Origin: Acetobacter malorum
Lineage (GTDB): Bacteria > Pseudomonadota > Alphaproteobacteria > Acetobacterales > Acetobacteraceae
Reading direction: 5' to 3'
DNA length: 64,000 nucleotides
Assembly (NCBI RefSeq): GCF_002153605.1
Contig: NZ_JOPG01000003.1
Location: 1 to 64,000 of the forward strand
Positions 51,156 to 63,424 of the stretch are shown piece by piece. Each line of letters starts with the position of its first letter. The stretch's first letter is position 1. The translations under genes and the position numbers were made by a program. The notes under the pieces are model-generated. The model was given only the letters and a program-made list of their open reading frames with translations, was not told the origin of the DNA and made no database searches.

Positions 51156-53301
<2,146 letters not shown>

Positions 53302-53351
53302 ACCCTGCTATCTCCTTCTCGGCACAGCACAAAAACGCAAAGACTTTACCT

Positions 53352-53367
53352 TATAGCCTATTGCATA
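53352..53367. promoter_or_regulatory. Degenerate MntR-like half-site between mntR and mntH
   Basis: Read on the minus strand this is TATGCAATAGGCTATA. The right half GGCTAT equals that of the enterobacterial mntH operator; the left half is poor. It lies in an AT-rich part of the divergent promoter region. It is much weaker than the site upstream of the receptor gene. Confidence 0.35.
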
Positions 53368-53423
53368 TTTCTGAGATCCGTTTCTAATGCTTCAAATCAT
53401 TTTTCGATAAAGCCCTTAATCTC

Positions 53424-54779
53424 ATGCCAGCCTCCCCGGTCTCACACCTCCGCACAGCCCTGAATTCTGTTTTTTCCGCACAGGAGAGCCGGCTGAGTCT
53501 GCCCGAAGCACACGCTTCCATTGCTGTGCCGGAAGGGGCGTCCAGACTGCGGCGTTTTCTGGCCTTTGTGGGGCCGGGTTACATGGTGTCCGTCGGGTAT
53601 ATGGACCCCGGAAACTGGGCGACTGACCTAGCTGGCGGCGCGCAGTTTGGTTTCACGCTGCTGTCCGTCATCATGCTGTCCAACCTGATGGCTATTTTGT
53701 TGCAATCGCTTGCCGCCCGGCTGGGAATTGCGACCGGGCATGATCTTGCACAGGCTTGCCGGGCCTATTTTCCGCGCAGTGTGAACATTCTGCTCTGGCT
53801 GGCCTGTGAGGTGGCGATTGTTGCATGCGATCTGGCGGAAGTAATTGGCACCGCGATCGCGCTCCAGTTGCTGTTCGGCATGCCGCTGCTTCTGGGTGCC
53901 TGTCTTTCTGCGCTGGATGCCATTGTGCTACTGTTGCTGATGCGTCTGGGCTTCCGGTGGCTGGAGGCGTTTGTCATGGCGCTGCTCAGCCTGATTGCCG
54001 TGTGCTTTGCCTTCCAGATTGCTGCGGCAGCCCCGCCAATTGCGGCCATCATGAAGGGCTTTATCCCCTCCCCGGTTATTCTGACCAACGCGCAGATGCT
54101 GTATGTGGCCATTGGCATCGTCGGGGCGACGGTCATGCCGCACAATCTCTATCTGCATTCCGCGCTGGTGCAGACCCGCACCTATGCGCGGACGTCTGCT
54201 GGCCGACGGGAGGCTATTCGCTGGGCCACGCTGGACAGCACCATAGCCCTGATGCTTGCCCTGTTTGTGAATGCGGGCATCCTGATTGTTGCTGCTGCGG
54301 CTTTCCATACAACTGGACATCAGGACGTTGCGGAAATTGATCAGGCCTACAAGCTGATTTCTCCTCTCCTCGGCCTTGGGATTGCCTCCACGCTATTTGC
54401 CGTCGCTCTGCTGGCGGCAGGCACCAATTCGACCGTGACCGGCACACTGGCCGGGCAGATTGTCATGGAAGGGTTTTTGCACCTCCGCATGGCGCCCTGG
54501 GCACGACGGTTGCTGACAAGGGGGCTGGCTATCGTGCCGGTTATTCTGGTCACGCTGCTCTGGGGTGCAAAAGGCACCGGAGATCTGCTGGTGTTGAGTC
54601 AGATCGTTCTCTCCATGCAGCTTCCCTTTGCGGTCATTCCGCTGGTCTGGTTTGTCTCTGACCGTCAGAAAATGGGAGAGTTTGCGCTTTCCCGCCCTGT
54701 CTCACTCCTTTCATGGAGTGTGGCGGCCGTGATTCTGATCCTGAATTTCAAACTGCTTTACGACACGATGTGCGGATAA
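53424..54779 (+). CDS. mntH: Proton-coupled Mn2+ importer MntH (Nramp family)
   Basis: Inner-membrane divalent metal/proton symporter. It has 451 residues and eleven predicted helices. The first-helix metal-binding motif is [13 protein letters not shown], and the sixth-helix region is [20 protein letters not shown], where the Met and flanking residues complete the Mn site. A hydrophilic N-terminal 40 residues precedes the core. It is divergent from mntR, as expected for a self-contained manganese uptake unit. The receptor gene follows on the same strand with its own promoter and operator. Confidence 0.95.
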
Positions 54780-54857
54780 CCCATCCCGCACCCTCGCCCT
54801 TCTGTCTGCTTCCTTCTGACTTTTTTACCTGTGAAAGAGACGCACAAAGTGTTTCAG

Positions 54858-54887
54858 TTCAACCTTAGATATAGCAAATGCTATGAT
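54858..54887 (+). promoter_or_regulatory. MntR operator within the promoter of the TonB-dependent receptor
   Basis: ATAGCA-AA-TGCTAT (54871-54884) is an inverted repeat with 6-bp arms that matches the enterobacterial MntR box (ATAGC-N4-GCTAT). It overlaps a -10 element TATGAT (54882-54887); TTCAAC 18 bases upstream could be a poor -35. Transcription would start near 54894, downstream of the earliest in-frame GTG at 54831. Confidence 0.75.
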
Positions 54888-54935
54888 AAAATCATATTTG
54901 TTCATTCTGATGCTAAGGGTAAATTATATCCGGCT

Positions 54936-57179
54936 TTGTCTCGCGCCGTAAAATCGGCCCCTTATGCGGCTCTGGTGGTTTGGTGCACCGTTCCCGTTGC
55001 GCAGAGCTGTGCGGAAACTTTGCCTCTCGTCCACGCCGGTCAAAACAAAACATCGGGGCATCTGAAAGCCCCGGCTTTCCCCTCCGGTATCCTGCCTGCA
55101 TCAGGGCAACATACAGAGACACAGGAACGACGGACGCCACAACGCCAGATGGACGTCGCGGCAGGAAAAACAGAATCTGTCACGGTCCACGCAGCGTTCA
55201 ACTCAGCGCGGGCGCGTATTGCGCCTAACCTAGGGGCCGTCGCCTACCGCATGGGGCAAGCGCAGATCAATACGACACCGGGCGGAGAGAACGCGGCCTT
55301 TAATCAGGTCTTGCTCCGCATGCCTGGCGTGGTGATGGATTCATTTGGGGAGGAACATGTTCGCGGCGAGCATGGCGGTCTGACCTACCGGATTAACGGT
55401 GTTCTGTTGCCGGAAGGTTTGAACGGGTTTGGCCAGGAACTGGACACCCGGATTATTGACTCTGTCACACTGATGACAGGCACCCTGCCCGCGCAATTCG
55501 GCTTTCGGACTGCGGGGATTGTGGATGTGACGGCAAAGTCCGGAAACTCTCTGAATAATCGGGAAGTCTCTCTGTATGGCGGCAGCTATAATAGTTTTAA
55601 CCCGTCTTTTCAGGTCGGCGGCACAAAAGGGCAATGGGAGTATTTTGTTTCAGGGTCGTTTAACCGGAACAATATCGGCATCGAAAACCCAACCCCGGCT
55701 TTTCGTGCCACTCATGATGTGACTGAGCAGGGAAAAGCTTTTGGTTACGCGTCTTACCATTTTGATGACACAAGCCGCATCAGTCTGCTGACGAGCGTTT
55801 CGGATGCAAATTTCGAAATCCCCAACGCAGCCGGGCTTCCCAAGCTATACGCCATTCAGAATGTGGGAGATGTTCAGTCTCAGGACGTGAATGACCGACA
55901 GAATGAGCAGAATTACTATGTGGTTCTCTCTTACCAGAAAACCGGGCAGAGGCTGAACTACCAGATCTCCCCCTATTTCCGGTATGGCGGCATTCATTAC
56001 ACGCCGGACCCGGTGCGGGATATGGTCTTTCAGGGCGTGGCGGAGAAGGAAAACAATACCTTCACCACGGGCGGTCTTCAGTTCGATGCTTCGTATGAAG
56101 CCTTCACAGCGCACACCATCCGCTTTGGCGTGCTGGGGCAATATACGTCTGAAAAATTGTGGACGCGCACAGATGTCCTGCCGGTTGATGAGACTGGTTT
56201 CCAGACTTCCACGAACCCGGTCTCCATTCAGGATAATACCGGTAACTGGGCAGCAGAAGCTGGCGCTTATCTTCAGGATGAATGGAAGCTGCTAAAAGGC
56301 GTCACGCTGAATTACGGTGTGCGATATGATCGGTTTGAATCCTCTTTCGATCATGAAGGGCAAGCCAGCCCTCGCGCTAACCTCGTCTGGGAGGTTGACC
56401 CGTCCACGACCGTACATTTTGGCTATTCACGCTATTTTGCCCCACCAACAGCCCAGTATATTGGCCAGTCTACCCTGCTAAAATTTGCGGGAACCACCAA
56501 TTCCCCTGAAAATTTCAACGCGACAGCCACCAAGGTCGAGCGGTCCAATTACTTCGATATTGGTCTGTCGCATCGCTTCCCACAGGGGCTCTCCATCACC
56601 GTGGATGGCTTTTACAAACAGGCCAGAAATCTTGGAGATCTGGGGCAGTTTGGGCGCGCCGTTATTTTAACGCCCTTCAGCTACAGAACCGGCAAGGTTT
56701 ACGGTGCGGAATTTGGCGGGAACTACCATTACAAAGGCCTGACGGTTTTCGGGAATTTTTCCTTTGTGAACACCGCCGCCAAGGACGTGAATTCGGCGCA
56801 GTATCAGTTCCCGGCAGACGAGCTGGCTTATATCAAAAACCATGCCATCAAGCTGGACCATGAAGGTGAATTTACATCCAGCGCTGGGGCATCGTATGGC
56901 TGGGCAGGTAACAAAGCCTATGTGGATTTCCTTTACGGCTATGGTCTGCGCTCAGGCTTCGCCAATACTGGAAAGCAACCCAGCTATCACATCATCAATA
57001 TTGGATATGAGCACACCTTTAAAAATATCCGCCCCCTTAAAGGGCTGAAACTGCGCATGGATGTCATGAACCTGTTTGATGAGCGCTATCAGATCCGGAA
57101 TGGCAGTGGTCTGGGGGTTTTCATGTCACAATATGGACAACGCCGGGCCGGATACCTGACAACTGTGATCCAGTTCTGA
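54936..57179 (+). CDS. TonB-dependent outer-membrane receptor, probably manganese-regulated
   Basis: Outer-membrane gated porin energised by TonB. The open frame begins with a GTG at 54831, but that start lies upstream of the promoter and MntR box, so I choose the TTG at 54936. This gives 747 residues with a clean signal peptide (MSRAVKSAPYAALVVW...QSCA) after translation of TTG as Met. AAGGG lies 16 bases upstream, which is long. The plug contains LLRMPGVVMDS, YRINGVLLPEG and LPAQFGFRTAGIVDV. The barrel ends with aromatic-rich strands and a final Phe (TVIQF). Neighbours mntR/mntH and the operator suggest a manganese chelate as substrate, which is inference. Confidence 0.82.
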   Translation: MSRAVKSAPYAALVVWCTVPVAQSCAETLPLVHAGQNKTSGHLKAPAFPSGILPASGQHTETQERRTPQRQMDVAAGKTESVTVHAAFNSARARIAPNLGAVAYRMGQAQINTTPGGENAAFNQVLLRMPGVVMDSFGEEHVRGEHGGLTYRINGVLLPEGLNGFGQELDTRIIDSVTLMTGTLPAQFGFRTAGIVDVTAKSGNSLNNREVSLYGGSYNSFNPSFQVGGTKGQWEYFVSGSFNRNNIGIENPTPAFRATHDVTEQGKAFGYASYHFDDTSRISLLTSVSDANFEIPNAAGLPKLYAIQNVGDVQSQDVNDRQNEQNYYVVLSYQKTGQRLNYQISPYFRYGGIHYTPDPVRDMVFQGVAEKENNTFTTGGLQFDASYEAFTAHTIRFGVLGQYTSEKLWTRTDVLPVDETGFQTSTNPVSIQDNTGNWAAEAGAYLQDEWKLLKGVTLNYGVRYDRFESSFDHEGQASPRANLVWEVDPSTTVHFGYSRYFAPPTAQYIGQSTLLKFAGTTNSPENFNATATKVERSNYFDIGLSHRFPQGLSITVDGFYKQARNLGDLGQFGRAVILTPFSYRTGKVYGAEFGGNYHYKGLTVFGNFSFVNTAAKDVNSAQYQFPADELAYIKNHAIKLDHEGEFTSSAGASYGWAGNKAYVDFLYGYGLRSGFANTGKQPSYHIINIGYEHTFKNIRPLKGLKLRMDVMNLFDERYQIRNGSGLGVFMSQYGQRRAGYLTTVIQF

Positions 57180-57358: not shown

Positions 57359-60300
57359 ATGGATTTAGAGCATACGGAAGAGGTTTCCATTGTAACGGAA
57401 ACACCGCAACCAGCCCCGGTTCCGGCTCCTCCCGCGTCGCCTGTGCTCAAAGTCTCCCTTCAGGACGCGCTGAACGCCTCGCTCTGGGAAAATAGCGTCC
57501 CCGTTCTGCTGGAACTGGCCCTGCAGAACGAAACGGATCGCAGCTTTTCTCAGATTGACGTGACGGTCAGCAGTGAGCCCCCCGTTATTCGCCCGCGCGC
57601 GTGGCATCTCCAGCAGATCGACCCCGGGCAGTTTCGCACTCTGAAAGATCTTGATCTGAAACTGGATGGGGCTTTTCTGAGCACCCAGACCGAAGCCTCC
57701 CGCGCGACAGTCACCTTTCTGGCAACAGATAAAGAGACCGGAGAAGAGCTGACCCGTCACACAACCGACGTGCGTGTTCTGGCTCGCAATGAATGGGGCG
57801 GCCTGTCCGGTATCCCAGACATTCTGGCCGCTTTCGTGATGCCGAATGATCCGGCCATTGCCCGTATCCTGCGCAGTGCGACGGAGATTCTGAAAAAGGA
57901 AGGCCTGTCTTCGTCTCTGGAAGGGTATCAGGGCTCCAAAGAACGGGTTTGGCAGCAGGCACAGGCGATCTGGTGCGCCATCTGTCAGCTTGATCTGGCC
58001 TATATCAACCCGCCTGCATCCTTTATCGACTACGGGCAACGTGTCCGTCTGCCCAGCCAGATTGTAGAAGACCGTCTGGCGACCTGTCTGGACACCGCCG
58101 TGCTGTTTGCAGCCTGTCTGGAAGCCGTGGGTATCCGTCCGATTATTGTTCTGACGCAAGGCCATGCCTTTACCGGCTTCTGGCTGGCAAAACTGGATGC
58201 CGGGGTTTCCGTCATGCAGGATCTGCCTGCTTTGCGGAACCGTTTGAAATTGCAGGATCTGGCGGTGTTTGAAACAACGCTGGTCACGGCAGGTCGCAAG
58301 CCAAGCTTCTCGGTTGCGTGTGAAAAAGGGGAAGCCAACCTGCGCCACGCAGGCGAGGATGAAGAGAACACGTTCCGCGAGATTATCGACATCCATCGCG
58401 CCAGACTGCGGCGCATTCATCCGTTATCCTGCTCCCTGCCCTCAGCCCCGGCTGAGGATCAGCCAGACGCGGAAGAACCGGAAGCCGCCCTGCCCGCTTT
58501 TGAGCCTGCTCCTGTTCTGCGGGAAGACCCGCAGGAGGTAGAGGAGGACAAACCCTCCACACCAGCAGACCGCCTGCAGCGCTGGTGTAACCGCCTGCTG
58601 GATATGTCAGGCCGCAATCGGCTGCTCAATCTGCCCCGCTCGGACAAGCAGCTGATTGTTGTCGATTGCCCGAACCCGTCCGAGCTTGAAAATCATCTGG
58701 CCGCTATGCGGTCTGGCCGACTGACAAAGCCCCTGCGCTTCTGCCCCTGGCCGGACATGATGGATGAGGGCGACCCACGTCAGGCCAGCCTGCATCATGA
58801 ACGGCACCATGAGGATGCGGCCCGCGCTTACGCGGAGGAAGCTCTGGGGCGCAACGAACTGCTTGTCTCCCGCAAGGAAAACCAGCTTCAGGCCGCCCTG
58901 ACGGAGCTTTACCGGCGTGCCCGCGCCGCCGAGCACGAGGGCGGGTCCAATGTGCTGTTCCTGACCATTGGCGCTCTGGCCTGGACGGCAGAAGGACGGG
59001 ATAAGCCTTATCTTGCTCCGTTGATCCTTATCCCGGTTATTCTGGAACGGCCCAGCGTCAAATCCGGCTTCGTCCTGCGTGCCCACCCGGATGAAAGCCG
59101 GATTAACGCGACATTGCTGGAAATGCTTCAGGCCGATTACGGTCTGCGTTTCCCGGCGCTGGAAGGCGAGACACTGCCGGAAGATGAGTCCGGGCTGGAT
59201 GTTGACCGTATTCTGGAACTCTTCCGCGTTGGCCTGCGCTCCGTGCCCGGCTGGGAAGTGCGGGATTACGTCACGCTGACCACGCTCTCCTTTGCCAAGT
59301 TCCTGATGTGGAAAGACCTGCAGGAACGCAGTGACAAACTCCGGACCAGCGAAGTCGCCACCCGCCTGCTGGATGGCATCACTGCGGAAGATACCGAGGC
59401 AGCGCCCCTGCCCCGTTTTTTTGAAGTTGATGGTTCTCTGGACGAGGCACTCGTCAAGGCAGATCTCATCTGCCCGATGGAAGCAGATTCCTCGCAGCTC
59501 AAAGCCGTTGCGCGTGCAGCATCCGGAGAAAGCTTTGTGCTGATCGGGCCGCCGGGCACCGGGAAAAGCCAAACCATTACGAACATTATTGCCAACACAC
59601 TGGCGCAAAACCGTACCATTCTGTTTGTAGCGGAAAAGCGGACAGCACTGGAAGTGGTGCGCAACCGCCTGAAGCAGATTGGGCTGGCGGAATTCTGTCT
59701 GGATCTGTTCTCCCCCAAAGCGAGCAAACTGGCTGTGCTGGGCCAGCTTGAAGCTGCTCAGACCGTGCTGGAAAATTTCAGCCCGGATGAGTGGGACCGC
59801 AGCCGGCAGCAGTTGGACCAGATCCGTACCGAACTGAACAACTACGTTGTTGTGCTGCACCAGAAATGGCGTAACGGCTGGACGGCTTATCGCGCCATTG
59901 GCGTGACGCTCCGCGCCGATGATGCGCAGACACTCGTCATTCCGCTGTCATGGCCAGATTGTAACGCCCATACCGCGCAGGATTACCAGACGCTGGCCGA
60001 TACGGCGGAAAACATCGCCAGCCTGTATGACCGTATTGGCGATGTCGTGCAGTCGCCCAAACTGGCTGGCCTTGAGCATGTTGAATGGTCTCCCATCTGG
60101 GAAGGCCGCCTGCTGGATGCCGTCTCCGCAGCTCTTGCCAGCCTGAGCCGCCTGCGCACAGCAGCAGAGGATGCTGCGCGCGCTCTTGGACTAGGCACGT
60201 CAGACTTGTCTCTGCGCCGCCTGCGTCAGCTCAACATCCTGTGCGGTCAACTCCTGAAACCGGAAGCCTGCGCATGGGCTTTCCCGGACACCTCTCAGCA

Positions 60301-63300
60301 GACCCTCGACAGTCTTCTGGCTGAAAAAATGCCGATTGCGCGGCACGCACAGCTCAAAGGCGAGCTTCGCACGAAGTGGAAGCCGGAAGTGCTGAACCTG
60401 CCGCTGGAAAGCATGGTTCAGGAATGGCAGGAGTCCAAGGAAAAATGGATTTTTGCCCGGTCTAAAATTCAGAAAGGCCTGCGCAAAAAGCTGGAGAGCC
60501 ACACCACCGCCCTGCCGGACGAGTGTGAGGACGATCTGGTCCGTCTGGCAGCAATACAGGCACTGGAAAAGCAGCTAAAGGATGCACAACACCACACGGT
60601 TGTTGGACCAGTCTGGCAAGGTCTGGACACAGACTTCAGCAAGATTGAGGCGATGCATGCATGGGGGGCAAAAACGCGCTCGGCGCTGGCCGCCTGCGCG
60701 GGTGATACAGCCGCACTGCTGGCAGCCCGCACGCACCTGAACGCACTCCTGCGCGACGGGATGGATCTGCTACGCACCGGAGGTCCGGTCCATCACGCAC
60801 TCACGGCATTTCAAGGCACTTTGGCTGAATGCCAGACCAGTCTGGAAGCGCTCGGCGCTCTGAGTGGGTCAGACGCGCTGGCGCTGGTCGAAAACAGCCA
60901 GCCGACATGGCCGGATACCATGACGGAAACCTTGCAGGCCTGGAAACAGTCCGCGCGAGACCTGAGAGACTGGTGCTCCTGGAAACATGCCTGCCAGGAT
61001 GCTGTCCGGCTTGGCCTGACCCCGCTGATTACAGCCATTGAGCATGGTCTGGTGGCCTCACACGATGTCACGCGCGTGTTTGAAGCCAATTATGCCCGCT
61101 GGTGGGTGCGCTTTGCGATTGACCAGTCCCCTCTGCTGCGTGGCTTTGTTGCGGCAAAGCATGAAAAGCAGATTGAGCGGTTCCGCACGCTGGACCGCAC
61201 ATTGATGGAAATGTCCGTCAGGCTTATCCGCTCACAACTGGCCGGGCAGATCCCGGATGCCCGAACCCGCCAGACAGACCCGGAATACAAGGTGCTGACG
61301 CGGGAACTGGCCAAGAAAATGCAGCATCTTCCCATCCGGCAGCTGGCGGAAAAAATGCCCACGGCCCTGCGCCGCCTGACCCCTTGCCTGATGATGAGCC
61401 CGCTTTCCGTGGCGCAATATCTGCCTGCGGATGCCACAGCATTTGACCTCGTGATTTTCGATGAGGCCTCACAGATCCCGACATGGGATGCGATCGGGGC
61501 GATTGGCCGGGGTAAGCAGGTCATTGTCGTGGGTGACCCCAAGCAGCTCCCCCCCACAGACTTCTTTAACCGAACCGCCTCCGATACGGATGAGGTGATG
61601 GAAACCCAGACGTGCGATCTGGAATCCATTCTGGACGAGTGCCTCGGCGCAGGTGTGCCGCCCGTCAATCTTTCGTGGCATTATCGCAGCCGGCATGAAA
61701 GCCTGATCGCCTTTTCCAATCAGGCCTATTATGGCGGCCAGCTCATTACCTTCCCGTCGCCCGTCACGAAGGACCAGGCGGTTTCCTTCCGTTTTGTGCC
61801 GGGTGGCGTCTATATGCGCGGCGCGGGTCGCACAAACCCGGTGGAAGCCCGTGCGGTTGTGGCGGAGGCGCTGCGCCTGCTGCAGGATGGCTCCGAGCGG
61901 TCTCTGGGCATCGTCACCTTCAATAGTGATCAGCAAACCCTGATTACGGATCTGATGGACAAGGCCCGGAGTGAAGACCCGGCCCTTGAGCGCTTCTTTA
62001 GTGATGACGCTGCGGAACCTGTTCTGATCCGCAATCTGGAAAACGTGCAGGGTGAAGAGCGTGATATCATGCTGTTCTCCCTCACCTACGGGCCGGATCA
62101 GGCTGGCAAAATTACTTTGAATTTTGGCCCGCTGAACCGCGATGGTGGGGAGCGCCGCTTAAACGTCGCCATCACCCGCGCTCGTGAGCGCCTGATTGTG
62201 TTCGGGTCTCTGCACGGAGACCAGATTGATATTGCCCGCACGCAGGCCGTCGGGGTGCATGACCTGCGCAAATTCCTCACCTTTGCTGAACATGGCGCTA
62301 CCGCACTGGCGGGACTGCATGAAGGCTCTGTCGGGGACTTTGATAGTGATTTTGAAAAGGAAGTGGCTGCGCTGCTCCGCCTGAAGGGCTGGCAGGTCGT
62401 ACCGCAGATTGGCGTTTCCGGCTTCCGGGTTGATCTGGGCGTTGTGGACCCGGACCGTCCGACCACCTTCCTTGCCGGGGTCGAATGCGATGGCGCGACG
62501 TATCATCGCAGCGCGACCGCGCGCGACCGCGACCGGCTGAGGCAGGCTGTTCTGGAAAATCTGGGCTGGACCATCCTCAGAATCTGGTCAACCGACTGGT
62601 GGACCAACGCTCAGCGCGAATGTGACCGGCTGGACAAAGCCCTGCATGCACTGCTGACCAAAATACGGGAAGAGCGTGCCGCGCAGGAAGAAGAGGAACA
62701 CGCCCACGCTGCTCTCCTCCATGCTGAAACTGACCCTGCTGAGGCACAAGACGCTGCCCTGACGCAGGATGACGCTCAGGACCCGAAGGAGCATTCAGAC
62801 CACCCTGATAACGCTGTATCCAATAAAACCACGTCAGGCGATCCGGGTCTTTACGCTCGGGCACCAGAGGGCCTACTGCCGCAGGCCAATCCGGTTTTAC
62901 CGCGTAATGAACAGGAAACTTCTGAAGATCAGCCGGATGCAGTGCCCGATCAGGCTTTGTTTTTCAAGGATACCTATACCCCGACGCTCATTCGCCTGAT
63001 TCAGCAGGAAGTAAAGACACAGGGCCCGGTGCGGGAAGATCTGCTGGTGCAGTCCATCTCCCGCCAGCATGGCTTTGCTCGGGCGGGACGAGAAATCCGC
63101 GAGCGTCTTCAGGGACTGATCCCGGCATCCTTCCCGCGCACGCAGGAAGATGTCGGCACCTTTGTCTGGCCGGAAACAGTCTCGCCGGATGCGCCACTGG
63201 CTTTCAAAGCCCCGACCCCGCACGAAACGCTGGACCCGGCAACTGTGCCACTTGCCATGCTGGTCAGTCTGGCAAAAACACTCTTGCTGACCGGCCTGCC

Positions 63301-63424
63301 GGATGAGGAGCTCATCACCACCATGCGCAAAGCCTGCGGCATGGGGCGTATGGGAGCGGCAACACGAGCCCGGTTTGAAGCCGCTCTGGCACGCAGCCGC
63401 GCCCCGGAAAACAGTCCCTCCTGA
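57359..63424 (+). CDS. DUF4011 / SF1 helicase / Vsr-like nuclease protein with transglutaminase-like domain
   Basis: Giant protein of 2021 residues; GGAG lies 9 bases before the ATG. Order: a beta-rich N-terminal region (about 30-140); a transglutaminase-like domain (about 165-330) with C243 (ATCLDTA), H269 (GHAF) and possibly D280; a variable linker; DUF4011 (about 400-610) opening with RLLDMSGRNRLLNL; an SF1 helicase with Walker A GPPGTGKS (K736), Walker B IFDEAS (D1368-E1369), GDPKQLPP and motif VI AITRARER (about 1604); a Vsr/MTES_1575-like nuclease (about 1657-1765) with GFRVDLGV and GVECDG; a charged linker; and DUF3320 (about 1868-1940). Proteins of this DUF4011-helicase-Vsr plan have been reported as single-gene antiphage factors. 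Its target here is unknown. Confidence 0.88.
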   Translation: MDLEHTEEVSIVTETPQPAPVPAPPASPVLKVSLQDALNASLWENSVPVLLELALQNETDRSFSQIDVTVSSEPPVIRPRAWHLQQIDPGQFRTLKDLDLKLDGAFLSTQTEASRATVTFLATDKETGEELTRHTTDVRVLARNEWGGLSGIPDILAAFVMPNDPAIARILRSATEILKKEGLSSSLEGYQGSKERVWQQAQAIWCAICQLDLAYINPPASFIDYGQRVRLPSQIVEDRLATCLDTAVLFAACLEAVGIRPIIVLTQGHAFTGFWLAKLDAGVSVMQDLPALRNRLKLQDLAVFETTLVTAGRKPSFSVACEKGEANLRHAGEDEENTFREIIDIHRARLRRIHPLSCSLPSAPAEDQPDAEEPEAALPAFEPAPVLREDPQEVEEDKPSTPADRLQRWCNRLLDMSGRNRLLNLPRSDKQLIVVDCPNPSELENHLAAMRSGRLTKPLRFCPWPDMMDEGDPRQASLHHERHHEDAARAYAEEALGRNELLVSRKENQLQAALTELYRRARAAEHEGGSNVLFLTIGALAWTAEGRDKPYLAPLILIPVILERPSVKSGFVLRAHPDESRINATLLEMLQADYGLRFPALEGETLPEDESGLDVDRILELFRVGLRSVPGWEVRDYVTLTTLSFAKFLMWKDLQERSDKLRTSEVATRLLDGITAEDTEAAPLPRFFEVDGSLDEALVKADLICPMEADSSQLKAVARAASGESFVLIGPPGTGKSQTITNIIANTLAQNRTILFVAEKRTALEVVRNRLKQIGLAEFCLDLFSPKASKLAVLGQLEAAQTVLENFSPDEWDRSRQQLDQIRTELNNYVVVLHQKWRNGWTAYRAIGVTLRADDAQTLVIPLSWPDCNAHTAQDYQTLADTAENIASLYDRIGDVVQSPKLAGLEHVEWSPIWEGRLLDAVSAALASLSRLRTAAEDAARALGLGTSDLSLRRLRQLNILCGQLLKPEACAWAFPDTSQQTLDSLLAEKMPIARHAQLKGELRTKWKPEVLNLPLESMVQEWQESKEKWIFARSKIQKGLRKKLESHTTALPDECEDDLVRLAAIQALEKQLKDAQHHTVVGPVWQGLDTDFSKIEAMHAWGAKTRSALAACAGDTAALLAARTHLNALLRDGMDLLRTGGPVHHALTAFQGTLAECQTSLEALGALSGSDALALVENSQPTWPDTMTETLQAWKQSARDLRDWCSWKHACQDAVRLGLTPLITAIEHGLVASHDVTRVFEANYARWWVRFAIDQSPLLRGFVAAKHEKQIERFRTLDRTLMEMSVRLIRSQLAGQIPDARTRQTDPEYKVLTRELAKKMQHLPIRQLAEKMPTALRRLTPCLMMSPLSVAQYLPADATAFDLVIFDEASQIPTWDAIGAIGRGKQVIVVGDPKQLPPTDFFNRTASDTDEVMETQTCDLESILDECLGAGVPPVNLSWHYRSRHESLIAFSNQAYYGGQLITFPSPVTKDQAVSFRFVPGGVYMRGAGRTNPVEARAVVAEALRLLQDGSERSLGIVTFNSDQQTLITDLMDKARSEDPALERFFSDDAAEPVLIRNLENVQGEERDIMLFSLTYGPDQAGKITLNFGPLNRDGGERRLNVAITRARERLIVFGSLHGDQIDIARTQAVGVHDLRKFLTFAEHGATALAGLHEGSVGDFDSDFEKEVAALLRLKGWQVVPQIGVSGFRVDLGVVDPDRPTTFLAGVECDGATYHRSATARDRDRLRQAVLENLGWTILRIWSTDWWTNAQRECDRLDKALHALLTKIREERAAQEEEEHAHAALLHAETDPAEAQDAALTQDDAQDPKEHSDHPDNAVSNKTTSGDPGLYARAPEGLLPQANPVLPRNEQETSEDQPDAVPDQALFFKDTYTPTLIRLIQQEVKTQGPVREDLLVQSISRQHGFARAGREIRERLQGLIPASFPRTQEDVGTFVWPETVSPDAPLAFKAPTPHETLDPATVPLAMLVSLAKTLLLTGLPDEELITTMRKACGMGRMGAATRARFEAALARSRAPENSPS

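Follow-up and report, generated by a model that had tools for sequence, protein, structure and literature searches.

A candidate manganese operon of Acetobacter malorum with a predicted MntR operator inside the coding sequence of a TonB-dependent receptor

What controls the TonB-dependent receptor gene that lies beside mntR and mntH in Acetobacter malorum, and where would that control act? The window analysed here is the whole 64,000-nt stretch of contig NZ_JOPG01000003.1 (positions 1 to 64,000), in which the gene order is mntR on the minus strand, then mntH and the receptor gene on the plus strand. The preliminary description of this DNA had placed an MntR operator over the -10 element of a promoter belonging to the receptor itself. 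Here, we propose that mntH and the receptor form one operon that Mn-MntR represses twice, once at the promoter and once within the receptor gene, a reading to which we assign a probability of about 0.62. The features concerned are as follows.

52774-53208, minus strand: mntR, manganese-responsive DtxR-family repressor (start ATG 53208; a longer GTG frame reaches 53301)
53352-53367, plus strand: TATAGC-CTAT-TGCATA, conserved candidate promoter/operator motif of mntH, recognised by conservation of TATARCN4TGCATA
53383-53388, plus strand: TCTAAT, putative -10 element 16 nt after TTGCAT, suggested by a weakly conserved T..A.T
53424-54779, plus strand: mntH, NRAMP Mn2+ importer (NF001923, 623.8 bits against a cut-off of 430)
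54849-57179, plus strand: TonB-dependent receptor gene (most likely start GTG 54849; longest frame from GTG 54831; TTG 54936 in the preliminary description)
54871-54884, no strand assigned: predicted MntR operator ATAGCAAATGCTAT, inside the receptor frame within codons 8-12 (Y-S-K-C-Y)

The mntR product scores 225.8 bits with NF008273 and passes the curated NCBIfam cut-off of 153, and DtxR-type N- and C-terminal domains (PF01325 and PF02742) were found in it. Its alignment with the E. coli MntR structure 2h09 has E 7.7e-44, and it also aligns with B. subtilis MntR (1on1), to which it is identical at all six manganese ligand positions; in B. subtilis we take these ligands to be D8, E11, H77, E99, E102 and H103. 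The earlier statement that the neighbouring MntR carries the full manganese ligand set is thus borne out, as is the adjacency of mntR and mntH to the receptor, since both genes lie above their curated cut-offs.

The receptor box is an exact ATAGC-N4-GCTAT palindrome in the window, and TATGAT at 54882-54887 overlaps its right end; both are found where the preliminary description had put them. The E. coli-type MntR operator, whose consensus we take to be AAACATAGCAAAGGCTATGTTT, has the same ATAGC-N4-GCTAT core, and the window's MntR is clearly related to the E. coli protein of known structure. In contrast to the E. coli-type operator, the Acetobacter box lies in the receptor coding sequence, and the box before mntH is an asymmetric variant. 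We compared receptor orthologues at about 51% identity or more in 34 distinct genomes, the window's included, which came from 15 of the 61 genomes of one set (window included) and from 22 of 299 family genomes (E <=1e-170); in the remainder of the 61-genome set, the best receptor matches were at most 43% identical, or there were none. A search for mntR at E <=1e-12 was positive in 15/15 and 16/19 orthologue genomes of the two sets. At the receptor start, the box is present with at most one mismatch in 31/31 genomes with mntR and in 0/3 genomes without it, counts that are inflated by the relatedness of the genomes and are not independent. The genomes lacking the receptor-start box (G106, G195 and G121) coincide with the three that gave no mntR match. 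In G106, mntH and the receptor are still paired, and 14 kb of its sequence holds neither a palindromic box within one mismatch nor TATAGC-N4-TGCATA within two mismatches, while in G195 a one-mismatch core, not counted as a receptor-start box, stands some 790 nt upstream of the receptor match. No box within one mismatch was found at the 16 paralogue loci examined (about 40% identity).

The preliminary description had proposed a genome scan for ATAGC-N4-GCTAT sites, and its outcome depends on the pattern used. The loose pattern does not rise above its reversed control in the 3.09 Mb genome, with 2 exact places versus 4 for the control (not significant) and, with one mismatch, 78 versus 62 (not enriched). 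Within the window, up to two mismatches gave 26 matches versus a shuffled mean of 16.4, and an exact site arose by chance in the 156 nt between mntH and TTG 54936 in 32 of 200,000 mononucleotide shuffles. The sharper A/T-core pattern ATAGYAWWWGCTAT, written after seeing the boxes of the family and hence post hoc, has the receptor box as its sole match in the window's genome (0 for the reversed control). Across the 34 orthologue genomes, it matches in 27, at the receptor in 26, and misses five receptor boxes, those of G034, G097 and G069 with a C in the core and those of G208 and G317 with an outer mismatch. Its matches away from the receptor are a receptor remnant behind mntH in G276 and long open frames in G024 and G010; it also matches one place in G195. 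Taken together with the conservation, ATAGCAAATGCTAT is very probably an MntR operator. In G276, the receptor remnant that persists behind mntH (C164:52088; L234:2289-2302) carries a one-mismatch box, and a further receptor, with a promoter motif of its own, is present at another place in that genome. Inside the receptor coding sequence of the window, at 55576-55589, ATGGCGGCAGCTAT resembles an MntR site with one mismatch; it also occurs in L004 and is probably due to chance.

The receptor has a TonB-dependent barrel (PF00593, E 2.6e-29) and is found at 85-92% identity in records named A. persici, A. orleanensis, A. malorum, A. cerevisiae and uncultured Acetobacter. Its plug region matches no plug family at E 1e-3, and many plug residues are invariant in 28 orthologues. 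An AlphaFold model built from these 28 orthologues has a mean pLDDT of 58 (below 50 over most of the plug) and is too weak to locate a metal site. A 41% identical paralogue in the same genome (C84) has no metal context in its neighbourhood, as judged by eye. The best-surviving alternative to our reading keeps the receptor under MntR control and gives it another cargo, which could be haem, an iron chelate or a metallophore, taken up within a broader response. The fold search with the pLDDT 58 model is consistent with this, since its best matches are general TonB receptors (PqqU, B12, FrpB, FhuA, siderophore and haem receptors), as is the only solved sequence relative, the colicin I receptor (E 6e-4). 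In Stenotrophomonas, an MntR-controlled receptor is induced by joint limitation of Mn and Fe (PMC13217887). However, the Acetobacter receptor lies directly behind mntH in 18/31 genomes and behind an mntH remnant in 2 more. In addition, three acidic residues, E168, E197 and D199 (counted from the GTG as 1), are invariant in the 28 orthologues and mostly non-acidic in the 16 paralogues; they would fit a hard divalent metal, which proves nothing about the cargo. On this evidence, we consider a cargo other than manganese possible and on balance unlikely.

In the proposed operon, the promoter would stand before mntH, where the motif is found. Exact TATARCN4TGCATA precedes mntH and/or the receptor in 27/31 mntR-bearing genomes, and the other 4 have a one-mismatch copy before mntH. 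The right arm of the window's copy, TTGCAT at 53361-53366, could be the -35 element of the mntH promoter. A weak T..A.T is seen 16-17 nt past TTGCAT in 61 distinct aligned sites, as would be expected of a -35/-10 pair; the sites were picked by the motif core, so the alignment is uninformative on the core itself. The pattern also matches single scattered places, such as one on C103 in the window's genome, and these look like chance matches. In G108, which has two copies of mntR (C39 and C94), both copies adjoin a TATAGC-N4-TGCATA motif and an mntH; two mntR copies are also present in G194:C1.

It is also conceivable that MntR reads the inner box while TATAGC-N4-TGCATA serves as a promoter element or binds a different metal regulator, of Fur/Mur type for example, so that two regulators would act at the locus. 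The asymmetry of the motif, which is oriented towards the following gene in the inspected cases, agrees with this, as does its -35-like right arm with T..A.T downstream. In addition, the strict form of the motif, TATAGCMYRTTGCATA, is missing from 180 of the 210 family genomes that have mntR. However, although TATAGC-N4-TGCATA is a poor palindrome, its left arm matches an MntR half-site perfectly, and TATAGCMYRTTGCATA occurs only together with mntR: all 30 of the 299 family genomes that carry it are among those 210, versus 0/89 genomes without mntR (E <=1e-20). We regard this alternative as rather doubtful.

TATAGC-N4-TGCATA also precedes Fe/Mn-type superoxide dismutase genes in G034, in G024 (two loci), in G001 and in the window's own genome. 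The enzymes of G034 and G000 were verified by Pfam and the others by 81-83% identity to the G034 enzyme; Fe and Mn models both match, each below its cut-off. A small gene separates motif and superoxide dismutase in 3/5 loci, and in G034 this gene has weak, below-cut-off TPR-like matches. At G000:C8:52755-54855 (L179:4756-6856), outside the window, the motif is followed by a cut TPR-like gene (by eye), an IS4/5-family transposase gene and the Fe/Mn superoxide dismutase gene; an IS4/5-family element probably separates sod from the motif in the window's genome.

The position of the motif relative to the receptor bears on where receptor transcription begins. When the receptor is not behind mntH (11/31 genomes), a motif copy is found 109-243 nt before the receptor box in 11/11, of which 10 are exact and one, in G013, has one mismatch. 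When the receptor is behind mntH, the 300 nt before the box hold no motif copy (0/18). Two of these 18 genomes, G010 and G343, have mntH matches in two pieces; in G010 (L082, A. persici-like), mntR also matches in two pieces, which reflects sequencing errors or decay. In G097 (L106) and G085 (L107), the mntH between motif and receptor is a remnant, and a full-length mntH is present elsewhere in the genome. The motif before the remnant lies 299 nt before the box in G097 and 494 nt before it in G085 (one mismatch), and these remnants are, judging from the sequences, natural deletions that moved the receptor nearer to the motif. Because the genomes with detached receptors and those with remnants retain copies, the receptor keeps the promoter motif in front of it with or without mntH in between, and the receptor promoter is probably located before mntH. 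A strict promoter scan found no plus-strand promoter-like site in 53209-54960, neither at the box nor at the mntH motif. A terminator scan of the window found none between mntH and the receptor; in some genomes (G008), a terminator between the two had been suspected by eye and was discarded, since the scan found none there.

We next considered the position of the box within the receptor gene. In 25/31 genomes, the receptor frame has a start codon exactly 16 or 22 nt upstream of the box and stays open across it; these starts are ATG in 19, GTG in 5 and TTG in 1, and the GTG 22 nt before the box is common to the window and 4 close relatives. Of the ATGs within 40 nt upstream of the box in this group of 25, 22 are in phase, as against 2 that are not. 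Shine-Dalgarno-like runs ahead of these starts were assessed only by eye. In G145, no further in-frame start follows the box until codon 124, within the conserved receptor. Because an upstream in-frame start with an open frame is conserved, GTG 54849 is the likely receptor start in the window. The operator thus probably lies inside the receptor coding sequence, an arrangement that is common and not universal. In G035, G013, G033, G028 and G139, there is no open in-frame start before the box, which lies ahead of the gene or right at its beginning, with the first in-frame ATG of G139 inside the box; in G343, an ATG 22 nt upstream is in phase with the box, and the receptor frame is broken further on. 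Codon choice within the box differs from that in the receptor body. Of the 25 coding genomes, 22 use AGC and 3 use AGT for the serine of the box, versus 24% AGC in the receptor body, and the last tyrosine codon of the box is TAT in 25/25, versus 61% in the body, so that selection seems to act on the DNA of the box and not on the peptide. Past the box, five chosen genome pairs give a modest codon-position bias (26/30/48, p 0.019), which is absent in several other pairs of the 22 compared, above all those with G085.

These results bear on the earlier proposal that the box covers the -10 element TATGAT of the receptor's own promoter, that translation begins at TTG 54936 and that MntR blocks the binding of RNA polymerase. 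TATGAT is indeed present, with TCAACC 17 nt upstream (the pair scores 8/12). It is present in 6/31 genomes, and the right half of the box continues into TATAAT in G004, G208 and G317. Moreover, in the four genomes in which mntR faces the receptor (G035, G013, G033 and G028), the first in-frame ATG comes 37 nt after the start of the box. However, the conserved upstream start with its open frame, together with the distant next start of G145, argues against translation from downstream of the box, detached receptors bear the mntH-type motif further upstream, column counts (by eye) show no conserved -35 before the box, and the strict scan was empty there. A local promoter over the box was rejected as the main promoter on the upstream starts and the motif before detached receptors, and we consider the earlier proposal improbable. 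A chance match of the palindrome, which the lack of genome-wide enrichment of the loose core pattern might suggest, has practically no standing and was rejected on the shuffles, the unique ATAGYAWWWGCTAT match and the codon choice held to the palindrome, along with the conservation at one place in every mntR-bearing genome and the absence without mntR.

The preferred reading, an operon repressed at two boxes, would work as follows. mntH and the receptor would be transcribed as a manganese-starvation operon from one promoter before mntH. At sufficient manganese, Mn-MntR would occupy two boxes, the imperfect one (TATAGC-N4-TGCATA) at this promoter and the perfect one about 1.5 kb downstream, in the first codons of the receptor, where it may stop RNA polymerase during elongation or prevent a local start. 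At low manganese, both boxes would be freed, and the inner-membrane importer would be made together with the outer-membrane, TonB-driven receptor, whose cargo would be manganese or a manganese chelate. More tentatively, and at less than even odds in our estimate, the weaker promoter box may set the threshold of the importer while the stronger inner box serves as a metal-set road-block, with the early codons Y-S-x-C-Y held by the operator and not by the protein.

A related arrangement is known from Stenotrophomonas maltophilia (PMC13217887, 2026). There, an MntR-controlled TonB receptor lies beside mntR-mntH in a module of a CQNC-type TBDR and a pTFP, and deletion of mntR raises expression of receptor and mntH reporters. 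The likeness to the Acetobacter locus is a TonB-dependent receptor by mntR and mntH with an MntR box. In S. maltophilia, the receptor box is placed between -35 and -10, 75 bp ahead of the start, whereas the Acetobacter box is in the coding sequence; the S. maltophilia mntH box lies 10 bp before the mntH start. The plug of the S. maltophilia receptor carries a CQNC motif, and the receptor has a thioredoxin-fold partner in the periplasm. In contrast, CQNC is absent from all 28 orthologues of the Acetobacter receptor, so membership of the CQNC receptor family was rejected; the cysteines of the window's receptor are at precursor positions 11, 46 and 54 only, with none past residue 54, and no thioredoxin-fold gene is directly downstream, the next listed frame on the receptor strand, at 57359-63424, being one of 2021 aa. 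The Acetobacter receptor is of a different type from that of S. maltophilia, set apart by these features and not by direct alignment of the sequences.

MnoT of Burkholderia thailandensis is a TonB-dependent outer-membrane Mn2+ transporter that is induced at low manganese and that, in an oxidative-stress response involving OxyR, acts together with the T6SS effector TseM (PMC8602904). MnoT and the Acetobacter receptor are alike in TonB dependence and in low-manganese expression, predicted here for the latter, in a comparison by description only. Among titles and the beginnings of abstracts, with subscription journals mostly outside the search, we found nothing on an MntR-receptor system of acetic acid bacteria. 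A 2006 comparative study of alpha-proteobacterial metal regulons may already list some of these sites. The earlier remark that manganese-regulated TonB-dependent receptors are little described was fair, except that the Stenotrophomonas case was published in 2026 (PMC13217887).

The passage of manganese across the outer membrane is poorly known, and in the literature consulted the TonB-dependent cases are MnoT and the Stenotrophomonas receptor. The Acetobacter locus adds another MntR-linked receptor type and another operator layout, with the box in 31 genomes of one family. It also offers a testable manganese regulon of mntH, the receptor and, in some species, the superoxide dismutase locus. 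The predicted operator is placed in coding sequence and moves with its gene. If the two unequal boxes act as proposed, the costly outer-membrane receptor would be made only at deeper manganese shortage.
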